Shown here piece by piece: positions 5,590 to 50,276 of a stretch of DNA of 64,000 bases. The translations under genes were made by a program, and so were the position numbers. Source of the DNA: Branchipolynoe longqiensis (lineage: Eukaryota; Annelida; Polychaeta; Phyllodocida; Polynoidae); NCBI GenBank assembly GCA_030323885.1, contig CM059193.1, positions 51,984,749-52,048,748 of the forward strand, in the 5' to 3' direction. Below the pieces are notes generated by a model. That model ran no database searches. It was not told the origin of the DNA and was given only the letters and a program-made list of their open reading frames with translations. Within the stretch, counting starts at the first letter, position 1; each line of letters begins with the position of its first letter.

Positions 5590-6360
5590 ATGGCGTTATC
5601 GGGGCTGAAGCTGCCAGCACCACTAAATCTGCAGGAGAACATGGCCATGATCTGGAAAACCTGGCTAAGCGCATATCAAATATATGCAACAGCCACAGGT
5701 GTGATCAACAAACTGAGAAGGTACAGTGCTCCATATTTTTACATGTGGCGGGCATTGAGGCCCAAACATTATACCGAACAATGAAAATCCAGGTATCGAA
5801 ACAGGATAAGATAGCACCCATTTGAAAGGCATTTGAAACATACTGTGAGGGCAAGACAAACATTATAGTAGTCAGGTATCAGTTCAATTCGTACAATAAA
5901 AGTGATGAGAGCATGGACACATTTATATGTGAACTGAAGATCAGAATCACATATTGTGACTACGGCAACAAGGAAGAATGCATGTTTTGCGATAGGATTG
6001 TGTGCGGTGTGAAAAACAACAAACAATGGGATCTACTACTACACACACCAAAGCTTACACTCGATTGCTGCATCGAGACATGCCGCCTGAGCGAACACAC
6101 CACCAAACAGCTAAACAAAGACAAAGAAGAAGGAGCAGAAGCCCGAGTAGACCACATAGTAAAGCACAAGTGGAGAAACACAAGAAATTGGACACAACGC
6201 GACCCATAAAACAAACAGTCGACACAATGCAGAAAAAGTGGATATCTATACGCAATAGGAGTGTGTCCTGCAAATGGAAAAGAGTATGCAGGATGCAAAA
6301 AGATAGGCCACTTCATAAAAGTATGCAAAGCTCCAAAACCAAGACCTCTCAACGAAATCA
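5590..6360 (+). pseudogene. gag: Gypsy Gag, frameshifted and interrupted
   Basis: The capsid-like region starts in one frame (MALSGLKLPAPLNLQENMA) and moves near 5715 to another frame reading 'KVQCSIFLHVAGIEAQTLY'. A TGA at 5823-5825 interrupts it, and it continues through 'DTFICELKIR' and 'DRIVCGVKN', which are typical of Gag from K02A2.6-like Gypsy elements. A second stop ends that frame at 6209. A nucleocapsid knuckle follows at about 6285-6325 in the same frame: the last three ligands of a C-x2-C-x4-H-x4-C pattern are present (GCKKIGHFIKVC) but the first Cys position is Tyr. Gag would package element RNA into virus-like particles; this copy cannot make an intact protein. Confidence 0.8.
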
Positions 6361-6361
6361 T

Positions 6362-6790
6362 GGTAGACCGGAACAACATCCCGAAAGCGAAGAAGAAACC
6401 TCAACAGATAATGTGTCAGACGAGGAGGACAAGCTCTTCATTGGTGAGATAGCTGACAACAAACACGGGAGGACGAACCTATGGTCCACAGACAACAACA
6501 TTGGTGGAACCAGCATACGGTTCAAACTAGACACTGGATCTGAGGCCAATATTGTACCCATCGTACTGATAAAAACAATGCAGAACATAACAGTACAACC
6601 GACAGCATGCCACCTTATCACTTACTCATGCGAGAAGATCAGCCCGGAAGGTGAGGCGGCCATCAAGGTGAATGGCACACAACTACGTTTCCAAGTGACG
6701 AAAGAGGGCAGCCCAATCCTTGGCAAAGAAACGTGTGTCAAACTCAACCTCCTAGTGCGAGTGGACAAAATCGGAGCTGCACGAACATAC
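6362..6790 (+). pseudogene. pol: Gypsy Pol: aspartic protease domain
   Basis: The open frame 6002-7381 carries, after an acidic linker (SDEEDKLFIGEI), a retropepsin-type active site DTGS at 6530-6541 followed by 'EANIVP' and a hydrophobic flap region. The protease would process Gag-Pol. The upstream part of this frame overlaps gag in another frame and is probably not translated as written. The frame change from gag to pol could be natural or mutational; I cannot tell from one decayed copy. Confidence 0.8.
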
Positions 6791-7500
6791 GATGACAAGG
6801 CCAAAGAAATGGTAAATAAATATGAGGATATTTTTAAAGGCATTGGTACCATAAAAACTAAAACTAAAGTACATGTTGATAATACCATAGAACCTGTCAT
6901 AGACCCACTGAGGCATATTCCACATGTCATCAAAGATGATGTAGATAAAGAATTAGATAAAATGTTAAAGTTAGGGGTGATTGTGAAGCAATGTGGAGCA
7001 ACTGCATGGGTCAACTCGATAACTATAGCCCGAAAACTGGGAAAGATGAGGATTTGTTTAGACCCCACTAAATTAAATAAAGCAATTCTTAGAGGCCCGT
7101 ATCCAACGAGAACCATCAAAGAGGTAGTAGCAAAAACACATGGTGCCAAATATTTGTCTGTACTAGACGCAAATAGCGGATATTGGCAAATCGGTCTAGA
7201 TGCTGAAAGCTCTAAACTGTGCACATTTAACACACCCTGGGGGAGATACTGCTACACCAGGCTGCCATTCAGCATAAAAACGGCCCGGGATATTTTCATA
7301 TACAAAATTAATGAAATTCTAAAAGATCTACCAGAGTCAATGTCATCACAGCTGACATTTGAGTATATGGAAATACAGTAGAGGAACATAACAAGAATTT
7401 ATTATGTGTGCTAGACAGAGCTAGAAAGGTAGATCTATGACTGAATCCAAATAAATCCATAATATGTGCAACGCATGTCAACTATTAGGTCACATCCTAA
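6791..7500 (+). pseudogene. pol: Gypsy Pol: reverse transcriptase, catalytic YxDD box lost
   Basis: The expected Gypsy RT order is seen: 'GVIVKQCGATAWVNSITIARK', 'MRICLDPTKLNKAI', 'YPTRTIKEVV', 'YLSVLDANSGYWQIGLD' (first catalytic Asp near 7166) and 'CTFNTPWGRYCYTRLPFSIKTA'. Where the YxDD box should follow, the frame reads 'FEYMEIQ' and stops at 7379-7381. The downstream RT text ('EEHNKNLLCVLDRARK') resumes in another frame. A small deletion therefore removed the catalytic Asp pair. The enzyme would copy element RNA into DNA; this copy is dead. Confidence 0.85.
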
Positions 7501-8160
7501 CGCAAACCAGCCTTAAGCCGAACAAACAACAAATCGAGGCAATAATTAACTTGCCCACACCGAATGATAAGCCACCCATTCTAAGATTCTTGGGGATGAT
7601 GGGATACGTAAGTAAATTCATTCCAAACATGGCGTAAGTTGCAAAGCCGCTACAAATTTTGTTTAACAAAGACACAGCATGGCACTGGGAAGATGCGCAG
7701 AAAAAAGTATTTGGCGAATTAAAAACATAATTGATGGATGCACCGGTTCTAGCATTCTATGACGTAAGAAAGAAATCCAAATTGCAAGTAGATGCATCAA
7801 ATTGGGGGCTCGGGGCCACTCTATTCCAAGACGGGAAACCGATCGCTATGGTATCGAAAGCTTTGGATGATAGAAAGAATTGTTAGCAATTTGTTTTGGA
7901 TGCACCAAGTTCCATGAATGTATATCTATGGTAAAGAAGTCACAGTAGACTCTGACCACAAACCCCTAGTGGTCATTATGATTAAATTGTTACATAAACT
8001 CTCAGCACGAATGCAATGCATGAGAAGGAGACTGCAAAATTATAAGTTAACTATCACACATGTAAAAGGATCAAAAATGTATTTTGCAGACACCCTTTCC
8101 AGAGCGTATGTAAACAACACGGAACCGAATAACCTGTTTGATGCCAAAATGTTGTCCGCA
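7501..8160 (+). pseudogene. pol: Gypsy Pol: RT connection and RNase H
   Basis: Text from more than one frame reads 'LPTPNDKPPILRFLGMMGYVSKFIPN', 'LQILFNKDTAWHWEDAQ', then RNase H-like 'KLQVDASNWGLGATLFQDGKPIA'. A further block, 'EVTVDSDHKPLVVI' to 'HVKGSKMYFADTLSRAY', is typical of the end of Gypsy RNase H. Stops near 7634, 7728 and 7885 interrupt it. The intact 151-codon frame at 7918-8373 is the 3' part of this domain and runs into the spacer before integrase. Confidence 0.85.
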
Positions 8161-8369
8161 GCAATCAACATGGTAGACGCCAACATCAAACGCATCAAAC
8201 AACACACCAAACGAGATGATACACTAAAAGAGTTAGTAAGAGTCATCCAGGCCGGCTGGCCTAACCAAAACAACCAAGTAAGGCATGACATAATACCATA
8301 TTTCACACACACACACAAAATCACAATGCACAACAAGATTACACTGAATATAATAATAATACCAAAATC

Positions 8370-9390
8370 ATGACAAAAAGATATGTTAAACAAACTGCAT
8401 GAGGCCCATTTAGGGACAGTCAAAACCAAACAGCTAGCGCAGGATTATATGTTTTGGCCCGGAATGGACAAACAAATCGAAGATAAAGTGGACACGTGTC
8501 AAATATGCCAAAGTTTCAGAGATTTCCAGCAATCTGAACCACTAATCAATCATGAAATACCCGACATACCATTTGACAAAATTGGCATTGTTTTCTTCCA
8601 GATAAAGGATAAAACATTCCTATTAATTGTATACTACTATTCAAAATTCCTTGAAGTCATTGAAATGACAAACACGTCAAATAAGAATAATATGAAAGAA
8701 TCGAAGTCTGTATTCGGCCATTACAGCATACCACACATGGTAGTATCACACAATGGTCCACAATTCTAAAGCGGAGAATATAAAGAATTTGTGAAAGAAT
8801 ACAATTTCAAGCGCTGTTTCTTGAACCCAATATACCTACAAAGCAACGGACAGGTAGAAAGATACGTTCAGACAATAAAGAGAATGATAAAAAAAGGCCA
8901 AACTCGACAACAAAGACATGAACATTGCATTATTAAACTACAGAAATACAACATTGACAGGTATGAACACATCACCAGCATAACTACTCATGAGCCAGAA
9001 ACTAAAATCATATCTCCCGACAGAAGCAAAACAATTGAAACCGAAACAACAGAAATCTAAAACAAATCAAATAATAATAAATCAGCAACAACAAAAAAAC
9101 TTTGACAAAAGAAAAAAAAAACACACAAACCGCCACACATCAGGAACAAAGTAAAATACCAAAACCACAGAAAAGAATGGGCATCAGGACACATAACAAG
9201 GACTAACAACCCAAGAAACAGAGACTATGAAATAATGAACACAGAAAACAACACAATACGCAGAAACAGAATACAGATTTTTAAAGTAGCTGAAAACAAC
9301 GACAACCAGCAACCAGCCGAAAGTCAATTATATAGAACAAAATACTGTAGGCAGCAAATAAGACCTGTAGAGCGCATGGGAATAACATGA
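8370..9390 (+). pseudogene. pol: Gypsy Pol: integrase with altered catalytic triad
   Basis: The zinc-binding HHCC region is well kept ('LHEAHLGTVKTKQLAQDY', 'MDKQIEDKVDTCQIC'). In the DDE core the first Asp position reads 'KIGIVFFQIKDK' (Val), the second reads 'VSHNGPQF' (His for Asp), and the third, in 'SNGQVERYVQTIKR', keeps Glu. A stop follows 'GPQF' at 8767-8769. After a gap of A-rich, frameshifted sequence, a Pol C-terminal tail ending 'RPVERMGIT' stops at 9388-9390. The enzyme would insert element DNA; this copy is inactive by several independent lesions. Confidence 0.83.
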
Positions 9391-11396: not shown

Positions 11397-12751
11397 TTAA
11401 GTAGTTGGGGCGGTGGGGAGGGTGGTTGAGGAGGTGGGGAGGGAGGTAGGGAGGGTGGTTGGGGAGGTAGGGAGGGTGGTTGGGGAGGTAGGGAGGGTGG
11501 TTGGGATGTGGGGAGGGAGGTAGGAGGGTGGTTGGGGAGGTAGGGAGGGTGGTTGGGGAGGTAGGGAGGGTGGTTGGGGATGTGGGGAGGGTGGTTGAGG
11601 AGGTGCGGAGGGTGGTTGGGGAGGTGGGGTAGGGTGGTTGGGAGGTGGGTAGGGTGGTTGGGGAGGTGGGGAGGGAGGTAGGGAGGGTGGTTGGGGAGGT
11701 AGGGAGGGTGGTTGGGGAGGTAGGGAGGGTGGTTGGGGAGGTAGGGAGGGTGGTTGGGGAGATGGGGAGGGGGCTGAGGAGGTGGGGAGGGTGGTTGGGG
11801 AAGTAGGGAGGGTGGTTGGGAGGTAGGGATGGTGGTTGCGGAGGTAGGGAGGGTGGTTGGGGATGTGGTGAGGGTGGTTGAGGAGGTGGGGAGGGTGGTT
11901 GGGGAGGTGGGGAGGGGGTGGGGAGGTGGGGAGGGTGGGTTGGGGAGGGAGGGAGGGTGGTGGGGGAGGTGGGGGGGTGGTTGGGAGGTGGGGGGGGGTG
12001 GGTGGGGAGGTGGGGAGGGGGGTAGGAGGTGGGGGGGGTGGGGAGGGGGTGGGGGGGGTGGGTGGGGGGGGTAGGGAGGGTGGTGGGGGAGGTGGGGGGG
12101 TGGTTGAGGAGGTGGGGAGGGTGGTTGGGGGGTGGGGGGGGTGGGTGGGGAGGTGAGGGAGGGTGGGGGGGGAGGTGGGGGGGGTGGGGTGGGGAGGGTG
12201 GGGGGGGAGGTGGGGAGGGTGGTTGGGGGGGGTGGGGAGGGGGGTGGGGAGGTGGGGGAGGGTGGTGGGGGAGGTGGGGAGGGGGTTGGGGGAGGTGGGG
12301 AGGGTGGTGGGGAGGTAGGGGGGGGGTTGGGGGGTGGGGAGGGGTGGGTGGGGGGGAGGGTGGGGGGGGGGGATGGGGGAGGGTGGTTGAGGAGGTGGGG
12401 AGGGTGGTTGGGGAGGTGGGGAGGGTGGTTAAGGAGGTGGGGAGGGTGGCTGAGGAGGTGGGGAGGGTGGTTGGGGAGGTAGGGAGGGTGGTTGGGGAGC
12501 TGGGGAGGGTGGTTGCGGAGGTGGGGATGTTGGTTGAGGAGGTGGGGAGGGTGGTTGGGGAGGTGGGGAGGGTGGTTGGGGAGGTGGCGAGGGTGGTTGG
12601 GGAGGTAGGGAGGGTGGTTGGGGAGCTGGGGAGGGTGGTTGCGGAGGTGGGGATGTTGGTTGAGGAGGTGGGGAGGGTGGTTGGGGAGGTGGGGAGGGTG
12701 GTTGGGGAGGTAGGGAGGGTGGTTGGGGAGGTAGGGAGGGTGGTTGGGAGA
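11397..12751. repeat. G-rich minisatellite, about 21-bp units
   Basis: Roughly 1.35 kb of tandem units of the type 'ggttggggaggtagggag'. The array is more regular at both ends and degenerates to GGTGGGG runs between about 11930 and 12370. The G runs on the plus strand (C runs on the minus) are expected to form G-quadruplex structures. Long open frames on both strands (476 codons on the minus strand) come from the absence of stop codons in the repeat and are not genes. Confidence 0.95.
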
Positions 12752-16430: not shown

Positions 16431-16659
16431 TACGCAGCGATGGAGGAAGTCAAGGCAGGAAGTGGAAAATAAAACACTTTATTATATATATCAAGTGGAG
16501 GAAGTAAGCAATGTAGATTGATAAGTAGAAGGATATAAGCAATGTACAATGATAAGTAGAAGGATATAATAAAGTCAATGTTGAAAGTAAATAATGAAGG
16601 GAAGAGGATAAAAGTGTCTGTGTCCATGTAAGGGGAGGTGCCCCGAAGAGCCCTCCGCC
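16431..16659 (-). repeat. B1 repeat of the YR element
   Basis: Directly abuts A2. Contains the end of the recombinase frame (stop at 16575-16577) and an internal duplication of the 'gataagtagaaggatata' block. Confidence 0.9.
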
Positions 16660-17774
16660 AAAAGGGAGGAGAGGGCGCGAGGGGCGCCAGAGGGGGCGAG
16701 GCGTGGGAGGTAGGCATGAACCGCCCCGGAGGTCCAGGTGCCCTGGGCCATGATGTCGGCCAGGGAGACCCCCGCCCTCTGGCAGGCCTGCGCCGCACCC
16801 CGACGTAGGCTATGGAGGGTGTAGCTGTCGGGGGCGGAAATGGCAAGCACACGGAACGTGCCTCTCAGGAGTGCAGTGAGGGTCCGAGGGTCAAGGGGCC
16901 GGCCCGAGGGCATGATGAAGGCGGGGTCATCTGGAGCGGCGGGGACAAGGGCCAATGATGCCAGCCAGGCCGCGACTGGGCAGAGGCAGGAGCCCGGCGA
17001 GGGGACGAAGAGGGCGACTGCCCCCGAGGGCAGGGCGATGGTCTTTGACGTCCTGAGGGTGATGCCGAGCCCTCCAGGGGCGGGGGCCACGTCGGCACAG
17101 GTGATGGTGTGGGGGCTGCGGGAAAGGGGAGGGGGAGGGGGGAGGGGAGGAGGTGCGGTTGTTGTGCGGTAAAGGTTGGGCGAAGTCGGCGGGCGAGGAG
17201 GGGAGGGGGGCCCATAGGGCCTGGGGCGTGGGAGGGCGGGGGGTGTGGGGGGGAGATGCCGGGAAGGTTGTGTAGGTAGGCGGTGTCGCCGGGGAGGGCG
17301 CGAGAGGGCGCGAGAGGGCGGCGGTGGAGGGGGCAGGGGGAGCGGGAGCGGGTGTAGGTGGGGGGAGGGCCGCCAGTCGTTCCAGTTCCGAGGGAGGTGA
17401 GGGAAGCGGGGGAGCTGGTGCCGGCGTGGGGGCCGGTTGCGCCCCCTGGGCTGCGAAGGCGAGCAGGCTCTCGTACAAGTCCACGTGAGGCGGTTTGACG
17501 GCGAAGGGCGTTTTTTGGCGTCCGATGCGGCAGCACATCGCGGCACCGCACCAGTCCAGGGCCTCCTCCCGGGCGGATTGCCGGGGGCTGGAGGGAGCCG
17601 AGGTCGCAGAGGCGGAGTCGGCTGTGGAGGTTGGAGGGGTGTTGGCTCACCTCCTGGGTCCGCGGCGTGCGGTGCGTCGGCCTCGTCCTCAGGGCATGTA
17701 GGACGGCGATTCGTGTGGGTCACGGAGGCGTGGAGGCATGGAGGCACCGGCAGCTTGGGGGCGAGGAGAGCCAA
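16575..17774 (-). CDS. tyrosine recombinase-like frame of the YR retroelement (399 codons)
   Basis: The C-terminal third resembles a YR-retrotransposon recombinase: 'HTITCADVAPAPGG', 'CPVAAWLASL', 'FIMPSGRPLDPRTL', then the H-x-x-R box 'HSLRRGAAQACQRAGV' at residues 321-336, Trp-347 in 'AQGTWTSG', and the candidate nucleophile Tyr-355 in 'AVHAYL'. The N-terminal 200 residues are very Pro/Arg-rich and show no fold I recognise; a second open minus-strand frame (16927-17538) overlaps there, so an old frameshift is likely. Starting 5 bases from A1, the frame is probably a fusion of the original first gene's start and the recombinase end, produced by internal deletion. The enzyme would integrate circular element DNA. 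Activity is unproven. Confidence 0.75.
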   Translation of the reverse strand: MALLAPKLPVPPCLHASVTHTNRRPTCPEDEADAPHAADPGGEPTPLQPPQPTPPLRPRLPPAPGNPPGRRPWTGAVPRCAAASDAKKRPSPSNRLTWTCTRACSPSQPRGRNRPPRRHQLPRFPHLPRNWNDWRPSPHLHPLPLPLPPPPPPSRALSRPPRRHRLPTQPSRHLPPTPPALPRPRPYGPPSPPRPPTSPNLYRTTTAPPPLPPPPPLSRSPHTITCADVAPAPGGLGITLRTSKTIALPSGAVALFVPSPGSCLCPVAAWLASLALVPAAPDDPAFIMPSGRPLDPRTLTALLRGTFRVLAISAPDSYTLHSLRRGAAQACQRAGVSLADIMAQGTWTSGAVHAYLPRLAPSGAPRALSSLLAEGSSGHLPLHGHRHFYPLPFIIYFQH

Positions 17775-17778
17775 AATA

Positions 17779-17930
17779 TAATAATGAAGAGTGCGTCTGG
17801 CAGGGCGTGGAGGCGTAGTGACTGGAGGAGGCTGGGGAGCTGCTTATAAGGCCGAAGGAAGGGGCAGGGGGGTGGGGGGGGGCACTCCTCCTCCGCTGCA
17901 AATCAAACGCAATGCAAGCATTACGACCAA
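17779..17930 (-). repeat. A1 repeat of the YR element
   Basis: The 5' terminal repeat on the minus strand. Ends share 'attacgaccaa' with A2. A TATA-like 'ttataag' motif near 17846 lies upstream of the open frame and could serve as its promoter. Confidence 0.88.
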
Positions 17931-20329: not shown

Positions 20330-20779
20330 ATACTTAGCTTCTTACCCCCTGTCTTTTCGCGTACTCCCCGCCCCCCCCCCCCACACCCACACCCATCCCT
20401 CTCTCCAGCCTCTTCTCAGGCGATGTCGTCCTGCAGCTTCACTCTCCCAGCACGTCTAAAAATACACGCTCCCATTCGTCAGTGTCGGGCACTCCTACCT
20501 CCCACTTGTAAAATAGCATCTGGCTGATGCGTCGCTAATACCACCCCCACACAAACCTCCTGGTACACCCCCACACATCCATACACACCTGGCACACACT
20601 TCCACACACTTGCCTCGCTCTCCCCCACACACCTCCCACGCACTGCTACTTCACTCCCACACACACCTCCTCCTCCTACACATATCCCACGCACACCTAC
20701 CTCCCTCTCCCTACATACACATACTGCTACCCACCACCCACACACACCTCCTCCTAAACACCTCCCACACACAACTAAC
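20330..20779 (+). repeat. left part of C-rich 52-bp satellite
   Basis: Repeats built of 'cctcccacacacaactaac' and 'ctccctcc' modules, irregular on this side. The array resumes at 25460, so it was one array split by the fold-back element. Confidence 0.85.
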
Positions 20780-20816
20780 CAGGTAGAGGCCACGTCTTGG
20801 ATTTCAAAACGTCTTG

Positions 20817-20846
20817 AAAAATCAAGACGTTTTGAAAAACCAAGAC
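20817..20846. repeat. hairpin near the fold-back terminus
   Basis: 'aaaacgtcttgaaaaatcaa' continues as a palindrome around the CGTCTTG/CAAGACG pair. The corresponding hairpin in the right arm lies at about 25405-25435. Could be a subterminal recognition site. Confidence 0.6.
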
Positions 20847-21284
20847 AGTTTACATATAGAAACAAATAGGGGTGACCTGTCACAGTCTGCCACTACTTTA
20901 ATATTGAGGATGGAACCTAACAAAATACATCATTAAAATGGCTATAAGTAGCTCTTCAAAGTTTCTATGAAGAAAATGCTCCTGTCTATAGTATGTTCAT
21001 ACTATTCAATTAAAACTACATTAAAATAAAGAGATAATCTTATTTTGCCTATAACATTGTGCTGTTTTTATTCTGGAATTAGTCATTTTTACTGGTGAAA
21101 CACCATGGTCTATTTAAACAAGTATTTTTCTTAGAATCAAAATCCTGGACATAGTTAATGAGAAATAACCAACAATATGAACAAATCATGATGAATAGCA
21201 TCATATATGCCATTACTCTAATGTACACAGGCAGATGGGTTGTTGTTTTAGCAGTCTACTACACAAGGATGGCCACTGGAGTTG

Positions 21285-21330
21285 GGTGTGGGTGTGGGGT
21301 GGGTGTGGGTGTGGGTGTGGGTGTGGGTGA
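21285..21330 (+). repeat. GTGTGG-type simple repeat in left arm
   Basis: Tandem 'gggtgt' units, matched by 'cccaca' units at 24914-24965 in the right arm. Confidence 0.85.
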
Positions 21331-21379
21331 AAAGTGGGATTTCTCTCTGTGTGGTATATCCACCATACAATATGTGTAT

Positions 21380-21790
21380 GTGCATATACAGACAGAATAT
21401 ACATGTATATATATATATATGCATATATAGGCATAATTATAAAGATATAGTGATATACACGCATATATGTGCATATATGTGCATATATATGAATATGTAC
21501 ACATATATACATGTAGATATGTATATATACACATATATATGCGTATATATACGCATATATATGCATATATACGCATATATATGCATATATACGCATATAT
21601 ACACATATATATATGCATATATACATATATACACATATATATGTGTATATATGTGTATATATGCACATATATACACATACATACATGTAGGTATGTATAT
21701 ACACACATATATACACATATATACATGTATATATGGGCATCTATATGTGCATATATATGTGCATATATATATACATAAATGTATGGATGT
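21380..21790. repeat. TA/CA-rich simple repeat in left arm
   Basis: About 400 bp of 'catatatacacatatatg'-type alternating purine-pyrimidine sequence, mirrored at 24465-24850. Long open frames rich in Tyr, Ile and Cys in several frames are an artefact of this composition. Confidence 0.92.
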
Positions 21791-21968
21791 ATGGATATAC
21801 TGGTACTGGTAGTACCCCTATCCTCAAACTTAAAAACAAGGTTTGGCAGCAGTCATGGCTCAATGACCATGACTCACATCCCCACTAAGTTTTTCAGTTA
21901 GTCAGTTTACAGATGCATCCCCACCCTAGCTTCTTTGTGTTGGTGTCACCCTGTCAGCCATATAGACC

Positions 21969-22286
21969 AGGGCCGCGTTCAGGGTCCGTCTCGGAGGCGC
22001 CTCGGCGACGTCTCGGCGATGCTTTTTGGCCTATTTCCGTTCAGGGTGCGTCTCGGAGACGTCTCGGAGACGCCTCCCTTTTCAGGTTGGAGACAAACAG
22101 CGCCTCGAAAATGGCCGCCGCATGCAGTGGTTTCATCCAATCAGAGCGCAGCATTTCGATGCAAATGGCCGCCTCCTATGGGGGCGGCCATTTTCGAGGC
22201 GACCAAGGTGGCTGTTGTTGTTCAGACTAGCCTGACGTCACGGGCGCCTCCGAGGCGCCTCCGAGACAGAGCCTGAACGCGGCCCA
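21969..22286. mobile_element. GGGCC-type TIR element inserted in the left arm
   Basis: Inverted termini GGGCCGCGTTCAGG and CCTGAACGCGGCCC enclose about 320 bp with repeated 'gtctcggaggcgcc' motifs and CpG-rich sequence. The right arm preserves the empty site: 'gccatatagaccggttagtg' in complement (near 24300-24325), against 'tatagacc' and 'ggttagtgg' at the two junctions here. No target duplication longer than one base can be read. Confidence 0.85.
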
Positions 22287-22611
22287 GGTTAGTGGTAGTC
22301 ATGCATGGTTGCCCCAGCTGACACCTCCCCCACCACCCACACACACAAAGTAAGACAATATCCACACAGCAACACTGGTCTGCCATCCACACCCCCACCA
22401 GCCCACTTGTAGCCACACCATCCTGGTCAATGATGATGTGGTGATATTTATTTTTATTTTATTTTTATTTAAATTGATTTATTTATTATCCTTACTTTTT
22501 AATTTTTTTCAGATTATTTCTATCCATTGTTTGCTCATTATTCACATGCTGTCAGGACCTCCCAGCATTCTGCCACCAATTGGACCACTCTGGGATTAGC
22601 AGTTGCTCTAT

Positions 22612-22672
22612 AGCTCAGATGGCAGAGTGTTGGTCTCCAGATCAGAGGGTAACTGGTTCGAATCTTGGAACT
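22612..22672 (+). repeat. tRNA-like segment in left arm
   Basis: 'tatagctcagatggcagag' resembles a tRNA A-box region and 'ggttcgaatct' a B box, with a CCA triplet in the anticodon position. No acceptor stem is evident, so I regard it as a tRNA-derived relic rather than a gene. In the right arm (24110-24150) only the B-box half survives. Confidence 0.6.
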
Positions 22673-22747
22673 AGAATACTTTTTTTGTAAAGAATGTCTT
22701 AATAATTTTTTTTTTAAATGCATAATTATATTAATATTAGTCAAATT

Positions 22748-24025
22748 TACCGGGCTCGACTTTACCCCGGGTCGACTTTACCCCGGGTCGACATTAGCCC
22801 AGCTCGACTTTACCCCGGTTCGAGTTTACCCCGGCTCGACTTGACGTTACCCGCCTCGACTTTACCCGGCTCGATGTGACCCGCCTCTATGTTACCTGGC
22901 TCGACGTGACCCGTCTCGATGTTACCCACCTCAACGTTACCCACCTCAATGTTTCCCACCTCGACATTACCCACCTCGATGTTACCCGCCTAAACATTAC
23001 CCGACCCAACTTTACCCAACCCGACTTTACCTGACCCAACTTTACCCGACCCGACTTCACCCGACCTGAGTTCACCCGACCACACTTTACCCGACCACAC
23101 TTTACCCGGCCACACTTTACCCGGCCTGACTTTACCTCACCTCACTTTATCTGACCCGAGTTTACCTGACCCGAGTTTACCCGACCAAACTTTACCCGAC
23201 CACACTTTACCCGACCACACTTTACCTGACCACACTTTACCCAACCCGACTTTACCTCAGCTCACTTTATCTGACCCGAGTTTACCTGACACGAGTATAC
23301 CCGACCCAACATTACCCGACCTGATGTTACCCACCTGGACTTTATGTTGAGGCGGGTAACATTGAGGCGGGTAACATTGAGGCGGGTAATGTCAAGGCGG
23401 GTAACGTCGAGGCAGGTAACATTGAGGCGGGTAACATCGAGGTGGGTAACGTCAAGGCGGGTAACATCGAGGCGAGTAACGTCGAGGCGGGTAACGTCGA
23501 GGCGTGTAACGTCGAGGCGGGTAACATCGAGGCGGGTAATGTCGAGGCGTGTAACGTCGAGGCGGGTAACGTCGAGGCGGGTAACGTCGAGGCGGGTAAC
23601 GTCGAGGGGGGTAAAGTCGAGGCGGGTAACGTCGAGGCGGGTAACATCGAGGTGGGTAACGTCGAGGCGGGTAACATCGAGGCGGGTAACGTCTAGGCGG
23701 GTAACGTCGATGCGGGTAATGTCGAGGCGGGTAACGTCGAGGCGGGTAACATCGAGACGGGTAACGTCGAGGCGGGTAGCGTCGAGGCGGATAACTCGGG
23801 TCGGGTGAACTCGGGTCAGGTGAAGTCAGGTCAGGTGAAGTCGGGTCGAGTGAAGTCGGGTGGGGTGAAGTCGAGTCAGCTGAAGACGAGTCGGGTAAAA
23901 TTGACCTGGGTAAAGCTGATCCGGGTAAAGTAGAGCCGTGTAAAGTAGAGCCGGGTAAACCTGAGCCGGGTAAAGTAGAGCTGGGTAAAGCCCAGTCAGA
24001 TAACGTCGAGCAATGTCGAGTTAGG
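22748..24025. repeat. central 15-bp tandem arrays, head-to-head
   Basis: From 22748 to about 23344 the units read as 'gttacccgcctcgac' variants. From about 23345 to 24025 they are the complement, 'gtcgaggcgggtaac'. The right half is far more regular (23345-23790). The two halves meet near 23340, the symmetry centre of the whole element. The 15-bp period yields open frames with 5-residue repeats on both strands, which are not genes. Confidence 0.93.
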
Positions 24026-25459
24026 TAAAGGCATATTTATTAATATTGATATAATTATGCATTACAAAAAAAAGTAGTATGACATTCTTTTAAAAAAAAG
24101 TATTGCAGTTCCAAGATTCGAACTGGTTACCCTCAGATCTTGAGACCAACACATCATCATTGACAAGCATGGTGTGGCTAGAGGGGCTGGTGGGGGTGTG
24201 GATTGCAGACCAGTGTTGCTGTGTTGGTATTGTTTTACTTTGTGTGTGTGGGTGGTGGGGGAGGTGTCAGCTGGGCAACATGCATGACACACTAACCGGT
24301 CTATATGGCTGGCAGGGTTACACCAACACAAAGAAGCTAGGGTGGGGATGCATCTGTAAACTGACTAACTGAAAAACTTAGTGGGATGTGGGTCATGGTC
24401 ATTGAGCCATGACTGTTGCCAAACCTTGTTTTAAGTTTGAGATAGGGGTACTACCAGTACCAGTATATCCATACATATATGTATATATATGCACATATAG
24501 ATGTCCATATATACACATATATACACATATATATGTGTATATATGTGTGTATATACATACCTACATGTATGTATGTGTATATATGTGCATATATACACAT
24601 ATATACACATACATGCACATATATATGAGCATATATGTATATATGCATATATATGTGTATATATTTATATATGCGTATATATACGCATATATATGTGTAT
24701 ATATACATACATACATGTATATATGTGTATATATGCATATATATGCACATATATCCACATATATGCGTGTATATCACTATAATTATGCCTATATATGCAT
24801 ATATATATATGTATATGCATATATATATATATACATGTATATGTCTGTCTGTATATGCACATACACATATACTGCATGGTGGATATACCACACAGAGAGA
24901 AATCTCACTTTGCACCCACACCCACACCCACACCCACACCCACACACACCCAACACCCACACCCAGCTCCAGAGGCCATCCTTGTGTAAGTAGACTGCTA
25001 AAACAACAACCCATCTGCCTGTGTACATTAGAGTAATGGCATATATGCTACTATTCATCATGATTTGTTCATATTGTTGGTTATTTCTCATTAACTATGT
25101 CCAGGATTTTGATTCTAAGAAAAATACTTGTTTAAATAGACCATGGTGTTTCACCAGTAAAAATGACTAATTCCAGAATAAAAACAGCACAATGTTATAG
25201 GCAAAATAAGATTATCTCTATATTTTAATGTACTTTTAATTGAATATTATGAACATACTATACACATGAGCATTTTCTTCACATGAACTTTGAAGAGCTA
25301 CTTATAGCCATTTTAATGATGTATTTTGTTAGGTTCCATCTTCAATATTAAAGTAGTGACAGGTCACCCCTATTGGTTTCTACATGTAAACTGGCTTGGT
25401 TTTTCAGAACGTCTTGCTTTTTCAAGACGTTTTGAAATCCAAGTCGTAGCCCCTACCTG
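24026..25459 (-). repeat. right arm of the fold-back element
   Basis: Inverted copy of the left arm without the GGGCC element and without 189 bp that appear deleted between GTG trinucleotides (arm text 'gatgatgtg' joined to 'ttggtctc'). Confidence 0.92.
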
Positions 25460-27235
25460 CTAACTCCCTCCCACACAAACACATATACCACTCACTACAC
25501 ACCTGTCACACACAACTAACTCCCTCCCACACAAACACATTTACCACTAAACACCTCCCACACACGCCTAACTCTCTCCCATACAAACACATCTACCACT
25601 ACACACCTTCCGCAGACAACTAACTCCCTCCCACACTAACACATCTACTACTACACATATCCCACACACAACTAATGCCCTCCCTCACAGCCCATCTAAA
25701 ACTACAGACCTCCCACAAACACATCTACCACTAAGCACCTCCCGCCCACAATTAACTCCCTCCGAGGTAAACACATCTACCACTACACACCTCCCACACA
25801 CAACTACCTCCCTACCACACAACCACATCTACCACTACACACCTCCCACACACAACTAACTCCCTACCACACAAACACATCTACCACTACACACCTCCCA
25901 CCCACAACTACCTCCCTCCCACACAAACACATCTACCACTACACACCTCCCACACACAACTAACTGCCTTCAGCACAAACACATATACCACTACACACCT
26001 CCCACCCACAACTACCTCCCTCCCACACAAACACATCTACCACAATACATCTCCCACAGCAATTCACTCCTCCCACACAAACATATTTCCCACTACATAC
26101 CTCCCGCACACACACAACTCCCTCCCACACAAACACATCTACGACTACACATCTCCCACACACAAATAACTCCTCCCATATACACACATCTACCATTACA
26201 CACCTTCCAGAGACACATAACTCCATCCCACACAAACACATCTACCACTCCACAACTCCCACACACAACTAGCTCCCTCCCAAACAAACACATCTACCAC
26301 TAGACACCTCCCACACAAAACCTATTCCCTCCCACACAAATACATATACCACTACACACCTCCCTCCCACAGTAACCCCTCCCACACAAATGCATCTACC
26401 ACTACACACCTCCCACAGACAACTAACTCCCTCCCACACAAACACACCTACCACTACACACCTCCCACACACAACTAACTCCCTCCCACACAAACACATC
26501 TACTACTACACACCTCCCAGACATAACTAACTCCCTTCCACACAAACACATCTACCACTACACACCTCCCTCCCACACCTAACTCCCTCCCACACAAACA
26601 CATCTACTACTACACACCTCCCACACACAACTAACTCCCTCCCACACAAACACACCTACCAATACACACCTCCCACACAACTAACTCCCTCCCACACAAA
26701 CACATATACCACTAAGCACCTCCCACACACAACTAACTCCCTCCCCACACACGCATATACCACTATACACCTCTCACACACTACTAACTCCCTCACCCAC
26801 CCACACACGCATATACCAATATGCACCTCCCACAGACAACTAACTCCCTCCCACACACCCGCTGGCACAATCAGAGCTTCACAGACAGCTCTGCCTACAC
26901 ACCTCGCTCCGACCCACGCCTTCCTCCTTCACACACACTCTCCTCCCACAAACACACTTCAGCATACATGTCCCTCTTCACACACTCCTCACACCTCCCT
27001 CCATACACACATCCCCCCACACATCCCTCTTCCCGTCGCTCCTCCCACAAACACCCCTCCTACACACACCTCCCACTCCACACGTTTTCGTCGCACTCAC
27101 ACCTTCCTTACCCACACCTTCTCCACACACATACCCCTCATATACTCCTACAAACACACCTCCACTCCCACACACACACACGCACGTCCCTCCCCATTCA
27201 GACGTCTCTCCCCATACCTTAAATCCCTGGTGGGC
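25460..27235 (+). repeat. right part of C-rich 52-bp satellite
   Basis: About 28 regular 52-bp units from 25465 to about 26900 (landmark 'ctaactccctcccacacaaa'), then more diverged C-rich repeats to about 27235. Minus-strand frames with Val/Cys/Gly repeats are composition artefacts. Confidence 0.95.
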
Positions 27236-34402: not shown

Positions 34403-34755
34403 AGGGCCCGGCCTGGAGTTGGAAACCAGATAGCCGCTTCTCCACCCCCTAGTGGCCGAATGCTCTCTACCCCTCCGCTCTACCCGCGTGTGTGAGGGGG
34501 GGGGGGGGGCGCTCAATGCCCTGATGCTGTTGCGCAACCCCCCGCTGACGGCTGCGCTGACACAGGCACTTGGAGCCCCCCCCCCCCAGTGGTGGGGGGG
34601 GAGGGTGCCGGTGCTGCCCTAATCGACCACACCCACTCCCAGGGGGGCGGGGCTGCTGGTGGTGCCCCTGCCTACGCCGTCATCGCGGCCTGGGTCGCCA
34701 GTGATCCGGGCCCTCAAGACTGGTTCCGTGTCGACCATAATGACAACACCTAAGG
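33906..34755 (+). other. GC-rich spacer between gag and RT of the YR element
   Basis: Contains homopolymer C (34141-34154) and G runs (34374-34402, 34497-34509) and Pro/Gly/Ala-rich frames. Frames here carry no recognised domain. Homopolymer lengths may be unreliable in the assembly. Confidence 0.6.
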
Positions 34756-35999
34756 GTGACCACCAAGGAAGCTCCTGGCCAACCTGATTGTGTTTTTGAC
34801 GTCTCTGATGATTGCGCGGCCGGTGCTTGCGTATGTGCCCACTATGTGGCTGGAATCCCTGTCCAGCTCAAACCTTGTCGGGTCTTCTGCGAGCTCTTCC
34901 TCCGGGGTGAGACTGACCCGGACTTTGAATATATACTCAGGGGTGCTATCTTCGGCTTTAAAGTTATTAACCCCCACTGTGCCTTTGACTATGACTGTCG
35001 CCATAGGACCATCATAGACGGCGCTGACAGGGCCAAGCTGACCGCCGAGATCGACCGAGGTTGCATCTCGGTCGTCGGCCCCAGGCCGACCTGCGTTCAT
35101 GATGTCTTTTGTGTTCCCAAAGATGGGGGCGGGGGCAGGGCCATTGTCGACTGCAGCCGCCCCTGTGGCTGCTCTGTGAATGTCTGCACCGATCAGGTTT
35201 GCATCAAATTCAAATATAACGCTCTTGACAGTGTGACTGAGCTAATGGAGGTTGGTGATTATATGTGCACGGTAGACATCAAGGATGCCTACTGAGCTAT
35301 CTCCATTCATCCTAGTGACTGTGACAGGCAGGGCCTCCATTGGGACTTTTCGGTGGGTGGGGGCCACGTACATGAAGGACAACGTCTCTGCATGGGACTC
35401 TCCTCCAGCCCCTTCGTCTTCAGCAAGGGCATCAGAAGACTTGTCAACACCCCGACGACTTCTGCCTCAACAGCCCAACTTTTGATGATGGCTGCCATGA
35501 CCAGGGGAAGCTCATCGCCATCCTCCGCAGAGTTGGTTTCCTTGTCAGCTTCCCAAAACTCTCCTCACCTAGTACCCTGGTCCGCTTCCTCGCCATTAAC
35601 ATTGACCCTGGCCGGCTAGAGATAAGCCTCCCTGCTGATAGGCTTTCACGCCTGCTCGCCATGCTCCAGGACATGGCGGGCAGGAGGAAGGTGACCAGGA
35701 AGACCCTCGAACATCTAGCTGGCCTCTTGGCCCACTGCAGCAAGGTCGTTAGGGGGGTCCACACTTTCTGCCGTAGGGTCTATGATAGTGTCGCTAGCGT
35801 TTGTGAGCCCCACCACCTTGTCCGCCTATCCAGAGGTTTCCGAGGCGATGTCGGTTGGTGGTGGTGCGAGTTTGCTGCCAGATTCAATGGTAAGGCCCGG
35901 ATCCTTGGGCACTTCGCCCCACAAATCTCCACCTACAGCGACACCTCCGACACCTCCGACGAGACTAGACAAAGAACTGGAAAATTACAAACAAACTAA
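34756..35999 (+). pseudogene. reverse transcriptase/RNase H of the YR element
   Basis: The DIRS/Ngaro-type RT shows 'HDVFCVPKDGGGGRAIVDCS', 'CIKFKYNALDSV', 'MCTVDIKDAY' (first catalytic Asp), a TGA at 35293-35295, then 'AISIHPSDCDRQGLHWDF' and 'CMGLSSSPFVFSKG'. After a frame change near 35440 the active-site box reads P-D-D-F in 'DDFCLNSPTFDDG', so both Asp codons survive. The thumb region follows: 'KLIAILRRVGFLVSFPKLSS', 'RKTLEHLAGLLAHCSKVV' and 'HHLVRLSRGFRGDVGWWW'. The frame ends just inside RNase H ('TYSDTS'). One stop and one indel inactivate it. Confidence 0.85.
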
Positions 36000-42373: not shown

Positions 42374-44190
42374 CTTGTTTAAAGCGAGCTATAACGAGTA
42401 TTACGTACCAGGTCCCCATCCTGATATTGTTTAAAGTGTACTATAACGAGTATTACGTACCAGGTCCCCATCCTGATATTGTTTAAAGCGGGCTATAATG
42501 AGTATTACGTACCAGGTTCCCATCCTAATATTGTTTAAAGCGTGCTATAATGAGTATTACGTACCAGGTCCCCATCCTGATATTGTTTAAAGCGTGCGAT
42601 AATGAGTATTACGTACCAGGTCCCCATCCTGATATTGTTTAAAGTGTGCTATAATGAGTATTACATACCAGGTCCCCATCCTGATATTGTTTAAGGTGTG
42701 CTATAACGAGTATTACATACGAGGTCCCCATCCTGATATTGTTTAAAGCGTGCTATAACGAGTATTACGTACCAGGTCCCCATCCTGATATTGTTTAAAG
42801 CGTGCTATAACGAGTATTACGTACCAGGTCCCCATCCTGATATTGTTTAAAGTGTGCTATAACGAGTATTACGTACCAGGTCCCCATCCTGATATTGTTT
42901 AAAGCGTGCTATAACGAGTATTACATACCAGGTCCCCATCCTGATATTGTTTAAAGCGTGCTATAACGAGTATTACGTACCAGGTCCCCATCCTGATATT
43001 GTTTAAGGTGTGCTATAACGAGTATTTCATACCAGGTCCCCATCCTGATATTGTTTAAAGTGTGCTATAACGAGTATTACATACCAGGTCCCCATCCTGA
43101 TATTGTTTAAGGTGTGCTATAACGAGTATTACATACCAGGTCCCCATCCTGATATTGTTTAAGGTGTGCTATAACGAGTATTACATACCAGGTCCCCATC
43201 CTGATATTGTTTAAAGCGTGCGATAATGAGTATTACGTACCAGGTCCCCATCCTGATATTGTTTAAAGCGGGCTATAACGAGTATTACGTACCAGGTCCC
43301 CATCCTGATATTGTTTAAAGTGTGCTATAATGAGTATTACGTACCAGGTCCCCATCCTGATATTGTTTAAAGCGTGCTATAACGAGTATTACGTACCAGG
43401 TCCCCATCCTGATATTGTTTAAAGTGTGCTATAATGAGTATTACATACCAGGTCCCCATCCTGATATTGTTTAAAGTGTGCTATAATGAGTATTACGTAC
43501 CAGGTCCCCATCCTGATATTGTTTAAAGTGTGCTATAACGAGTATTACATACCAGGTCCCCATCCTGATATTGTTTAAGGTGTGCTATAACGAGTATTAC
43601 ATACGAGGTCCCCATCCTGATATTGTTTAAAGCGTGCTATAACGAGTATTACATACCAGGTCCCCATCCTGATATTGTTTAAAGTGTGCTATAACGAGTA
43701 TTACATACCAGGTCCCCATCCTGATATTGTTTAAAGTGTGCTATAACGAGTATTACATACCAGGTCCCCATCCTGATATTGTTTAAAGCGTGCGATAATG
43801 AGTATTACGTACCAGGTCCCCATCCTGATATTGTTTAAAGCGTGCTATAACGAGTATTACGTACCAGGTCCCCATCCTGATATTGTTTAAAGCGTGCTAT
43901 AACGAGTATTACGTACCAGGTCCCCATCCTGATATTGTTTAAAGCGTGCTATAACGAGTATTACATACCAGGTCCCCATCCTGATATTGTTTAAAGCGTG
44001 CTATAACGAGTATTACATACCAGGTCCCCATCCTGATATTGTTTAAAGCGGGCTATAACGAGTATTACGTACCAGGTCCCCATCCTGATATTGTTTAAAG
44101 CATGCTATAATGAGTATTACGTACCAGGTCCCCATCCTGATATTGTTTAAAGCGTGCTATAACGAGTATTTCATACCAGGTCCCCATCCT
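42374..44190 (+). repeat. 52-bp tandem satellite, about 35 units
   Basis: Very homogeneous array; unit landmarks 'tgtttaaagcgtgctataac' and 'gtaccaggtccccatcctga'. Variation is mostly at CpG-like sites (acg/aca, cg/tg). The part 'gtaccaggtccccatcctga' resembles the SINE-1 tail region as seen at 46750-46772. Confidence 0.97.
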
Positions 44191-46310
44191 GAGTGAATGT
44201 AGGGAGAGTGAGTAGGGGGAGGGGAGTGGGAAGGGACGGGAGTGGGAGGGCACGGCAGTGGGAGGGGACGACAGGGGGATGGGACGGCAGTGGGAGGAGA
44301 GGGCAGGGGGAGGGGATGGCAGGGGGAGGGGACGGGAGTGGGAGGGGACGGGAGTGGGAGGGGAGGGCAGTGGGAGGGGAGGGCAGTGGGAGGAGAGGGC
44401 AGTGGGAGGGGATGGCGGGGGGAGGGGACGGCAGTGGGAGGGGAGGGGAGGGGGAGGGAGGGCAGGGGGAGGGGACGGCAGGGGGAGTAGATGGCAGTGG
44501 CAGGGGACGGCAAGGGGAGGGGACGGGAGCGGGAGGCGACGGCAGCGGACGGCAGGGTCAGGGATGGAAGTGGGAGGGGACGGCAGTTGGACGGGATGGT
44601 AATTGGAGGGGACTGCAGTGGGAGGGGCCGGCAGTGGGAGGGGATGGCAGTGGGAGGGGACTGCAGTGGGAGGGGCTGGTAGTTTGAGGGGACGTCAGTG
44701 GGAGGGGGGGGGGGAAGTGGGAGGGGACGGCAGTAGGAGGGGCTGGTAGTTGGAGGGAACGGCAGTGGGAGCGGATGGCAGTGGGAGGGGACTGCAGTGG
44801 GAGGGGACAGCAGTGGGAGGAGAGGGCAGTGGGAGGGGATGGCAGGGGGAGGGGACGGGAGTGGGAGGGGACGGGAGTGGGAGGGGAGGGCAGTGGGAGG
44901 GGAGGGCAGTGGGAGGAGAGGGCAGTGGGAGGGGATGGCGGGGGGAGGGGACGGCAGTGGGAGGGGACGGCAGTGGGAGGGGAGGGGAGGGGAGGGGGAG
45001 GGACGGCATGGGGGAGGGGACGGCAGGGGGAGTAGATGGCAGTGGGAGGGGACGGCAAGGGGAGGGGACGCAGCGGGAGGAGACGGCAGCGGACGGCAGG
45101 GTCATGGATGGAAGTGGGAGGGGACGGCAGTTGGACGGGATGGTAATTGGAGGGGACTGCAGTGGGAGGGGATGGCAGTGGGAGGGGACTGCAGTGGGAG
45201 GGGCTGGTAGTTGGAGGGGACGGCAGTGGGAGGGGCTGCTAGTTGGAGGGGACGGCAGTGGGAGGGGACTGCAGTGGGAGGGGCTGCTAGTTGGAGGGGA
45301 CGGCAGTGGGAGGGGACGGCAGTGGGAGGGGCTGCTAGTTGGAGGGGACGGCAGTGGGAGGGGCTGGTAGTTGGAGGGAACGGCAGTGGGAGCGGATGGC
45401 AGTGGGATGGGACTGCAGTGGGAGGGGACAGCAGTGGGAGGGGAAGGCAGTGGGAGGGGACGGCAGTTGGAGGGGACGGCAGTGGGATGGGATGGCAGTG
45501 GGAGGGGATGGCAGTGAGAGGGGATGGTAATTGGAGGGGACGGCAGTGGGGGGTGACGGCAGTGGGAGGGGATGGCAGTGGAAGGAGACGGCAGTGGGAG
45601 GGGTCGGCAGTGGGAGGGGATGGCAGTGGGAGGGGATGGCAGTGGGAGTGGACGGCAGTGGGAGGGGGCGGCAGTGGGAGGGGGGCAGCAGTGGGAGGGG
45701 GCAGCAGTGGGAAGGGACGGCAGTGGGAAGGGACGGCAGTGGGAGGGGACTGCAGTGGGAGGGGATGGCAGTGGAAGGGGACGGCAGTGGGAGGGGGCGG
45801 CAGTGGGAGGGGGCGGCAGTGGGAGGGGACAGCAGTGGGAGGGGATGGCAGTGGGAGGGGACTGCAGTGGGAGGGGACGGCAGTGGGAGGGGACGGCAGT
45901 ACGAGGGGATGCTAGTTTGAGGGGACGGCAGTGGGAGGGGGCGGCAGTGGGAGGGGGCGGCAGTGGGAGGGGACAGCAGTGGGAGGGGATGGCAGTGGGA
46001 GGGGACTGCAGTGGGAGGGGACGGCAGTGGGAGGGGACGGCAGTACGAGGGGATGGTAGTTTGAGGGGACGGCAGTGGGAGGGGGCGGCAGTGGGAGGGG
46101 ACAGCAGTGGGAGGGGCTGCTAGTTGGAGGGGACGGCAGTGGGAGGGGACTGCAGTGGGAGGGGACGGCATTGGAAGGGGGCGGCAGTGGGAGGGGACGG
46201 CAGAGGAAGGGGGCGGCAGTGGGAGGGGATGGTAAGGGGAGGGGAGGGGGGAATCAACAGTGGTGGAAGGGTAGGGGGTAGTGGGAGGGGAAGGAGTTCA
46301 CCTCTGTAAT
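44191..46310 (+). repeat. G-rich minisatellite, 16-bp units
   Basis: About 2.1 kb of 'acggcagtgggagggg' variants, beginning right after the 52-bp satellite. Contains larger internal duplications (44240-44530 resembles 44810-45090). A 16-bp period cycles through all three frames, so long open frames appear on both strands. Confidence 0.96.
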
Positions 46311-49389: not shown

Positions 49390-50240
49390 AACACAACACA
49401 ACTACTGACAATTGCCCAATGGAACGTCAGGACTCTTCTCGACTGAGAAGCAGCTGACCGACCAGAAAGACGTACGGCACTAGTAGCAATGGAACTGGCA
49501 AAATACAACATCGACATTGCTGCCCTATGCGAAACAAGGTTCTCAGAGTCTGGTAGTCTCAATGACCTGGAATACTCTTTCTTCTGGAGTGGCAAACCCG
49601 AAGGAGAGAGAAGGGAGGCAGGAGTAGGCTTTGCTATCAAAAAGGACATCGTCACAAAGCTGACAGAAATGCCACGGCCAGTAAGTGACAGAATCATGAC
49701 GATGAGACTACCTTTGAGCAAGGACCACTTTGCTACAATTATCAGTGTGTACGCTCCAACAATGACAAACCCAGATGATAACAAGGAGGCCTTCTACAAC
49801 CAGCTGGCAAGTACGCTCAGTGACATCCCTCACACTGATAAGCTACTGCTGATAGGAGACTTCAATGCAAGGATAGGAAGAGACAATGACAAGTGGCCCT
49901 TGGTCATGGGCAAACATGGAATCGGGAAATGCAACTCCAATGGTGAGCTCCTACTGGCTTTGTGCTCTGAGTTCGAACTGATAGTGACAAACACCATGTT
50001 CAAGCAGAAGGATGAACGCAAGACCACTTGGATGCATCCTCGTTCCAGGCACTGGCATATGATCGACTTCATCATCACAAGGTGCCGGGATAAGATGGAC
50101 ATCCACAGTACTCGAGCCATGCGTGGAGCTAACTGCTGGACCGATCACCAGATGCTAAGGTCAAAAGTGGCATTCAGAATACGAGAAAAACACAACAGGC
50201 AGGGGACAAATAAACCAACAAAGCTCAACACAGCAAATTA
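49390..50240 (+). pseudogene. RTE endonuclease domain (apurinic-type)
   Basis: Begins 'LLTIAQWNVRTLLD' with the catalytic Asn region, then an in-frame TGA at 49444-49446, then 'MELAKYNIDIAALCETRFSE' with the catalytic Glu. It continues through 'VYAPTMTNPDD', 'LLLIGDFNARIGRD' (Asp/Asn pair), 'KTTWMHPRSRHWHMIDFIIT' and 'TDHQMLRSKVAF' (final Asp-His). All signature blocks of the exonuclease-endonuclease-phosphatase fold are present. The enzyme nicks target DNA to prime reverse transcription. The TGA could be a CGA-to-TGA change at a CpG (inference). The frame ends at 50239-50241, where a one-base shift separates it from the RT frame. Such proteins are often misannotated as craniofacial development protein 2-like. 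Confidence 0.9.
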
Positions 50241-50276
50241 AGTACCATCAGTCACAGGGAGAGCTTCGAGCGGGAG

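Follow-up and report, generated by a model that had tools for sequence, protein, structure and literature searches.

The described fold-back elements closest to the one analyzed here are distinguished in part by the length of their target-site duplications (TSDs). Galileo, of the P superfamily in Drosophila, is described as producing TSDs of 7-8 bp with the consensus GTATTAC (PMC4168063), the Mutator/Foldback element Tm1 of root-knot nematodes is reported to have TSDs of mostly 8-10 bp, chiefly 9, at targets for which its description gives no clear consensus (PMC3169594), and the TSDs of Tetris in Drosophila virilis are likewise given as mostly 8-10 bp (PMC4079207). We analyzed a stretch of 64,000 nucleotides from Branchipolynoe longqiensis (positions 51984749-52048748 of contig CM059193.1, hereafter the window; host assembly of 1.85 Gb in 1914 contigs), which contains a palindromic element of 4680 bp at positions 20780-25459 with the ends CAGGTAG...CTACCTG and a 5-bp TSD, CTAAC. 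A first-pass annotation, made from the letters alone, had described an inserted fold-back element with these inverted ends, this TSD and this size. The fold-back observation is confirmed, and its reading as an inserted element with a 5-bp TSD is supported by the rest of the genome, in which the window palindrome is one copy of a dispersed, many-copy fold-back family.

A dispersed family of palindromic elements

A search of the host genome with the end of the left arm returned 1717 first-look candidates, the best 40 of which were scored; all 40 matched at 99-100% identity and started at query bases 1-6 (window 20775-20780), and 40 further opposite-strand matches of ~53 bases in the same listing correspond to the terminal hairpin. 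A search with the right arm yielded 1671 candidates, of which the best 40 scored 96-100%. Because the arms are ~96% alike, the two candidate lists probably overlap, and the candidate numbers do not represent a copy number. The family sample thus comprises the top-scoring 40 of ~1700 candidates per arm and, since the closest matches were taken, over-represents young copies.

Twenty stretches of 9.9 kb (L009-L028) were then read around top-scoring arm matches; L001-L008, which coincide with fetched loci or with the window, were left out. Both ends were present in 13 of these 20 loci, 2739 to 7603 bp apart, giving 14 complete copies with that of the window. For two more loci, L013 and L025, the right-arm search listed the far ends, at distances of ~10.4 and ~17.7 kb, and the interior contains retroelement sequence. 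The copies lie on many contigs, in unrelated flanks and with their own TSDs, so that the other copies called for by the first-pass annotation were found with the same ends and 5-bp duplications. Long inverted arms, as expected of a fold-back DNA transposon, were found in every complete copy (palindromes in 14/14, internal 15-bp arrays in 12/14). Wherever the modules are present, they keep the order end, U2, U3, tRNA-like segment and 15-bp array, and single modules are absent from some copies, such as the A-side tRNA-like segment of L010. One complete copy (L027:6554-9399) lies inside an apparent Gypsy-type pol reading frame, as judged by eye.

Five-base-pair duplications at a preferred target motif

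TSDs were compared in 21 copies, namely, the 13 fetched copies, the window copy and 7 more whose A-type and G-type ends (the two arm types defined below) were fetched separately. An identical 5-bp duplication was found at both ends of 18 of the 21, the constant length expected of a fold-back DNA transposon; a 5-bp match should arise by chance in about 1 in 1000 per copy, which places this result beyond chance. At 40 A-type ends, the target carried T at position 2 (35/40), A or T at position 3 (35/40) and A at position 4 (36/40), which defines the motif N-T-W-A-N, with no strong preference outside the 5 bp. These 40 include L032 and L033 (G000:C17:8250395 and G000:C17:4928315), two A-ends with identical 12 flanking bases, which are therefore perhaps one insertion within duplicated DNA. 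An orientation bias of the targets, considered from 14 copies, was dropped, the motif looking symmetric at 40 ends.

Each copy carries two arm lineages

Over their outer 480 bases, the 14 + 14 arms of the complete copies form two groups, the A type and the G type; 12 substitutions and one gap column are fixed between them. Every complete copy (14/14) has one A arm and one G arm; the 7 further single ends are all A type because an A-type query selected them. A 10-base deletion, found only in the right arms of the window copy and L016, is not a fixed A/G difference.

The divergence between A and G arms of the same copy was next compared with that between A and G arms overall, leaving out segments shorter than 75% of their module (13 + 13 of the 14 + 14 segments for U3, 11 + 11 for the tRNA-like module). 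The two values were 4.31 versus 4.32% in the terminal inverted repeat (TIR), 2.65 versus 2.67% in U2, 6.15 versus 5.86% in U3 and 10.42 versus 10.51% in the tRNA-like module. The nearest neighbor of a segment belonged to its own lineage in 28/28 cases for the TIR, 27/28 for U2, 23/26 for U3 and 22/22 for the tRNA-like module. Within lineages, the G arms, which were not selected by the query, differ by a mean of 1.72% in the outer module, and divergence in the tRNA-like module is 1.64% (A-A) and 1.65% (G-G). Since arms of the same copy are as divergent as A and G arms overall, the palindrome predates the spread of the sampled copies, which go back to a single palindromic founder, and conversion from arm to arm has been rare.

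Structure of the window copy

The features of the window copy and its flanks are as follows, with the basis of each assignment in parentheses.

20775-20779, no strand: left TSD, CTAAC (read from the sequence, the satellite register and the 5-bp TSDs in other copies)
20780-21279, + strand: left terminal arm, A-type, unique AT-rich part, beginning CAGGTAGAGGCCACG (arm alignment, arm-type comparison, genome matches)
20796-20844, + strand: left-arm terminal hairpin with an almost perfect stem (75-mer folded, -25.0 kcal/mol, without shuffle control)
21283-21338, + strand: GGGTGT-type microsatellite, left arm (repeat scan of the window)
21377-21777, + strand: TATATG-rich low-complexity block, left arm (repeat scan of the window)
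21797-21968, + strand: left-arm module U2, present on each side in 14/14 complete copies (module comparison between copies)
21972-22283, + strand: private nested element with TIR GCCGCGTTCAGG, flanked by CCAGG at 21967-21971 and 22284-22288 (sequence reading)
22289-22440, + strand: module U3, left arm (module comparison between copies)
22599-22674, + strand: tRNA-like segment with a T run after it at ~22680 (sequence reading)
22746-23344, + strand: A-side 15-bp array, diverged, of similar length across copies (repeat/periodicity scan)
23345-23990, - strand: 15-bp array of the G side, in which GTTACCCGCCTCGAC is the commonest unit and the length differs from copy to copy (repeat/periodicity scan)
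24105-24152, - strand: tRNA-like remnant of the right arm, 5' part deleted (arm alignment)
24153-24470, - strand: U3 and U2 modules of the right arm (arm alignment, module comparison)
24475-24863, - strand: TATATG-rich low-complexity block, right arm (repeat scan of the window)
24913-24965, - strand: GGGTGT-type microsatellite, right arm (repeat scan of the window)
24980-25459, - strand: right terminal arm, G-type, unique part (arm alignment, arm-type comparison, genome matches)
25395-25443, - strand: right-arm terminal hairpin with some mismatches in its stem (folded, -16.4 kcal/mol, without shuffle control)
25460-25464, no strand: right TSD, CTAAC (read from the sequence and the satellite register)
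25460-26857, + strand: 52-bp C-rich satellite hosting the insertion (repeat scan, flank register)

The two arms of the window copy differ by ~4% and carry private indels. Their best ungapped pair (20887-21260 with 24989-25362) spans 374 nt at 97%, while the longer ungapped pairs listed lie within the 15-bp arrays at ~71%. When the arms were aligned with each other, the outermost 100 bases matched at 92, and positions 21080-21179 matched at 100/100. The first-pass annotation had the arms pairing over their full length, with the same module order in both. The palindrome is real and the module order was confirmed, but the pairing is interrupted by two large private differences, the 312-bp nested element on the left and a loss of ~189 bp on the right, with pairing down to 71-79% in the central 15-bp arrays. 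The right-arm loss lies at 24152, between two GTG triplets, and removes the 5' portion of the tRNA-like segment.

This segment, also proposed at first pass for each arm, contains sequences that we take to be A- and B-box-like, followed by a T run. However, no tRNA gene was found in it by ARAGORN or Rfam at default thresholds, ARAGORN calls at lowered thresholds were differing and inconsistent, and its right-arm counterpart is the 5'-deleted remnant. As for the insertion site, removal of the element and one CTAAC had been said to restore the satellite unit exactly. The left flank ends 5 bases into the 52-bp unit and the right flank begins at its base 0, so that the flanks, minus one CTAAC, do continue in register; the match of the last 24 bases on the left is 23/24, and only about one degraded unit is recognizable there, the regular array lying on the right.

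The window is also rich in minisatellites, with three stretches of more than 1.3 kb each (11404-12748, 42375-44192 and 44216-46245), and contains retroelement genes at 5996-8766, 16578-17843, 34744-35996 and 49447-52403. Among these, Pfam recognized a Gypsy-like reverse transcriptase with an integrase zinc finger and a LINE-type endonuclease-reverse transcriptase; tyrosine-recombinase-like and DIRS-like open reading frames (ORFs) were seen by eye only, with no Pfam match.

Array length and nested elements

The 15-bp arrays are missing from two of the complete copies, L015 and L027. The junction at which the array switches orientation (ACTTTAYGTTGAGGCGGG) was matched by one pattern in 8 of the 12 array-bearing copies. 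Summed per side in a periodicity scan, the A-side array measured 362-523 bp versus 663-2264 bp for the G-side array, whose commonest exact unit was counted 299 times. Length variation is therefore mainly in the G-side array, a one-sided change that could have come about by unequal exchange or slippage.

The 312-bp nested element, whose CCAGG repeats represent a 5-bp TSD of its own, had no match in L009-L028, and its empty site, GACCAGGTTAG, was found in 25 of 26 other arms of complete copies. A second nested element of ~436 bp lies in the G-side array of L011, L017 (5579-6014), L019, L020, L021 (twice) and L022, with a broken copy in L024, and apparently spread together with its host copies.

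Coding capacity

The longest open frames of the 14 complete copies include translations of the arrays, up to 617 aa. From the 64 higher-complexity ORFs of at least 100 aa in these copies, 10 were scanned against Pfam and matched no family, a protein search with the 100-aa ORF at 24065-24364 was empty at E 10, and the ORF lists of 13 of the 20 loci contained no shared frame. When ORFs of five loci were compared with Pfam, four of eight matched (an innexin in L018, an aspartyl protease in L025, and reverse transcriptases in L013 and L014) and the other four did not (three in the L026 neighborhood, one in L025). The protein matches agree with an annelid host: the nearest named relative of the innexin is from the leech Helobdella (66%), the Lamellibrachia innexin listed standing at 46%, and a retroelement matched one of Lamellibrachia at 92% over 81%. 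One exact pattern each, run against viral_contigs and genome_contigs (viruses and prokaryotes), gave 0 matches, which is little informative. Judging from these frames, the family appears to lack genes of its own.

Probable origin and mobilization of the family

The family very probably represents non-autonomous cut-and-paste (class II) fold-back transposons that derive from one palindromic founder and are mobilized in trans, which would account for the observed ends, TSDs, target motif, multi-copy state, two arm lineages and one-sided array variation, as well as for the lack of recognizable coding capacity. An ancestral inverted duplication would have produced one palindrome, with its junction inside a 15-bp tandem array, and this founder would have been moved many times by a transposase that recognizes the CAGGTAG ends and cuts its target with a 5-bp stagger at N-T-W-A-N, leaving 5-bp TSDs. 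Each copy retains both arm lineages, A and G; the G-side array has changed in length, other elements have inserted, and deletions would have given rise to shorter or truncated copies. Because no transposase with these ends was found, we infer mobilization in trans, the simplest account being a DDE-type transposase with a 5-bp stagger.

Several observations weigh against this explanation. The TSDs of 3 of 21 copies are imperfect (L012 and L021 have one mismatch each, and L016 is offset by one base), no second end appeared in the readable stretch of 5 of the 20 loci (L014, L018, L023, L024 and L026), and the junction pattern had no match in 4 of the 12 array-bearing copies. Furthermore, 3 of 26 U3 segments and 1 of 28 U2 segments are nearest to the opposite lineage, indicating some conversion or misalignment, and no transposase with CAGGTAG ends was found, hAT genes being the only ones searched for genome-wide.

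The hAT superfamily is also the leading candidate source of the transposase: a hAT5-like element making 5-bp TSDs, which would specify the trans-mobilization explanation rather than replace it, is a real possibility, albeit somewhat less likely than not, and the search of hAT loci did not confirm it. The host has hAT genes (34 PF05699 matches in the genome). Known hAT elements have CAG ends, and their 8-bp targets carry T second and A second-last. The family has CAG ends as well, and its nTWAn motif keeps this T-second, A-second-last rule. It also shares 5-bp TSDs with hAT5 (PMC12730594). A further source of support is L052, in which a 791-aa frame contains DUF4371 and a hAT dimer domain; its ends read CAGGGG, and TATGT flanks it on either side. 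To set against this, we examined 30 distinct loci, comprising 23 of the 34 PF05699 matches, which had passed the threshold from among 76 candidates (42 lay below it), and 7 additional PF14291 places (of 14 matches). None of the 30 showed a CAGGTAG terminus, most stretches in two of the three sets read covering the 3' flank only and possibly ending before the terminus, whereas 18 had a recognizable L048- or L052-type terminus. The best family-like resemblance was 12 of 15 bases in L053, inside the transposase ORF. Among 15 ends of the L052 family, counted by eye, T occupies the second target position just twice, and since its targets lack nTWAn, the L052 family is not a likely mobilizer. L048:395-3937 is itself a hAT element; its frame is 621 aa long, its ends are CAGGGATGAAAG, and it has the 6-bp repeat CTTATT.

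A mobilizer of the CACTA/Mirage/Chapaev/Transib group is unlikely. Transib has CACWRTG ends and GC-rich targets, which mismatch CAGGTAG and nTWAn. In its favor, the group is described as having mostly CA..TG termini and TSDs of 2-5 bp (PMC12730594), in line with the CA...TG ends and 5-bp TSDs of the family. Much less probable is a Galileo/P-type or Mutator-type fold-back, the reading that the layout itself suggests: a 9021-bp Galileo copy of D. willistoni is described in which the arms measure 4246 and 4680 bp and contain both tandem repeats and nested elements (PMC4168063), and the two end motifs of Tm1, A1 and A2, recall the A and G arms (PMC3169594). Against this, TSDs are 5 bp in 18 of 21 copies, shorter than the 7-8 bp reported for Galileo or the 8-10 bp that predominate in Tm1 and Tetris, and this length speaks against both Galileo and Mutator-type membership. 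Very improbable is a segmental inverted duplication in the satellite with no transposon, for even if the founder palindrome probably did arise by inverted duplication, the many contigs, unrelated flanks and separate TSDs refute this origin for the family. Chimeric palindromes are a known class of assembly or read artefact. Here, however, the window arms are ~4% apart with private indels, and an artefact is effectively excluded because unlinked, dispersed copies with their own TSDs carry the same arm-specific differences.

Returning to trans mobilization, it is possible, if tentative, that the family belongs to a fold-back class whose transposase is of an undescribed kind, cutting nTWAn targets with a 5-bp stagger, and in which the arms stay separate lineages through a burst and length change is largely confined to one array; such a class would differ from the fold-back lineages in the literature compared. 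The mobilizer is in any case a well-defined target, namely, a transposase that acts on CAGGTAG ends and cuts with a 5-bp stagger. Kilobase palindromes are usually considered unstable or homogenized. This family retains its kilobase arms, appears to move as a unit and keeps an arm-specific record, making palindrome stability, arm-to-arm conversion and array growth measurable across many copies of one presumed founder.

Comparison with known systems

The TU elements of sea urchin are fold-back elements that share 15-bp tandem repeats in their arms with this family, but they carry them at the outer arm end and have 8-bp TSDs, versus a central array and 5 bp here. The Transib ends noted above differ from CAGGTAG. 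The CAG ends are as in hAT. The 5-bp TSD is that of hAT5 (PMC12730594), yet no hAT gene with CAGGTAG ends occurred in the 30 loci, and the host's own 5-bp-TSD hAT, L052, has other ends and other targets.

Galileo resembles the family in its very long inverted arms, its tandem repeats and nested elements in some copies, and its many non-coding copies (PMC4168063). It differs in its 7-8 bp GTATTAC duplication, versus 5-bp nTWAn here. Galileo includes transposase-bearing copies; none was recognized in the family copies examined, the genome-wide search being one for hAT genes. The likeness to FB/Galileo elements drawn at first pass therefore extends to layout and, probably, to the way of moving, but not to membership. 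Tetris is similarly a non-coding fold-back with tandem repeats in its arms, described without an autonomous copy (PMC4079207); its TSDs are 8-10 bp, and its arm repeats seed satellites, whereas the window copy inserted into one. Tm1 shares composite arms of variable length and two end motifs per element, offering a precedent for unlike ends within one element, with arms of the same element averaging 93% identity (PMC3169594); it differs in TSDs of 8-10 bp without clear consensus, versus 5 bp with a strong motif here. As the first-pass annotation supposed, no described family with these ends was found in the literature searched, repeat databases not being compared. Taken together, this is a new fold-back family, set apart from Galileo, Tm1 and Tetris by the length of its TSD.

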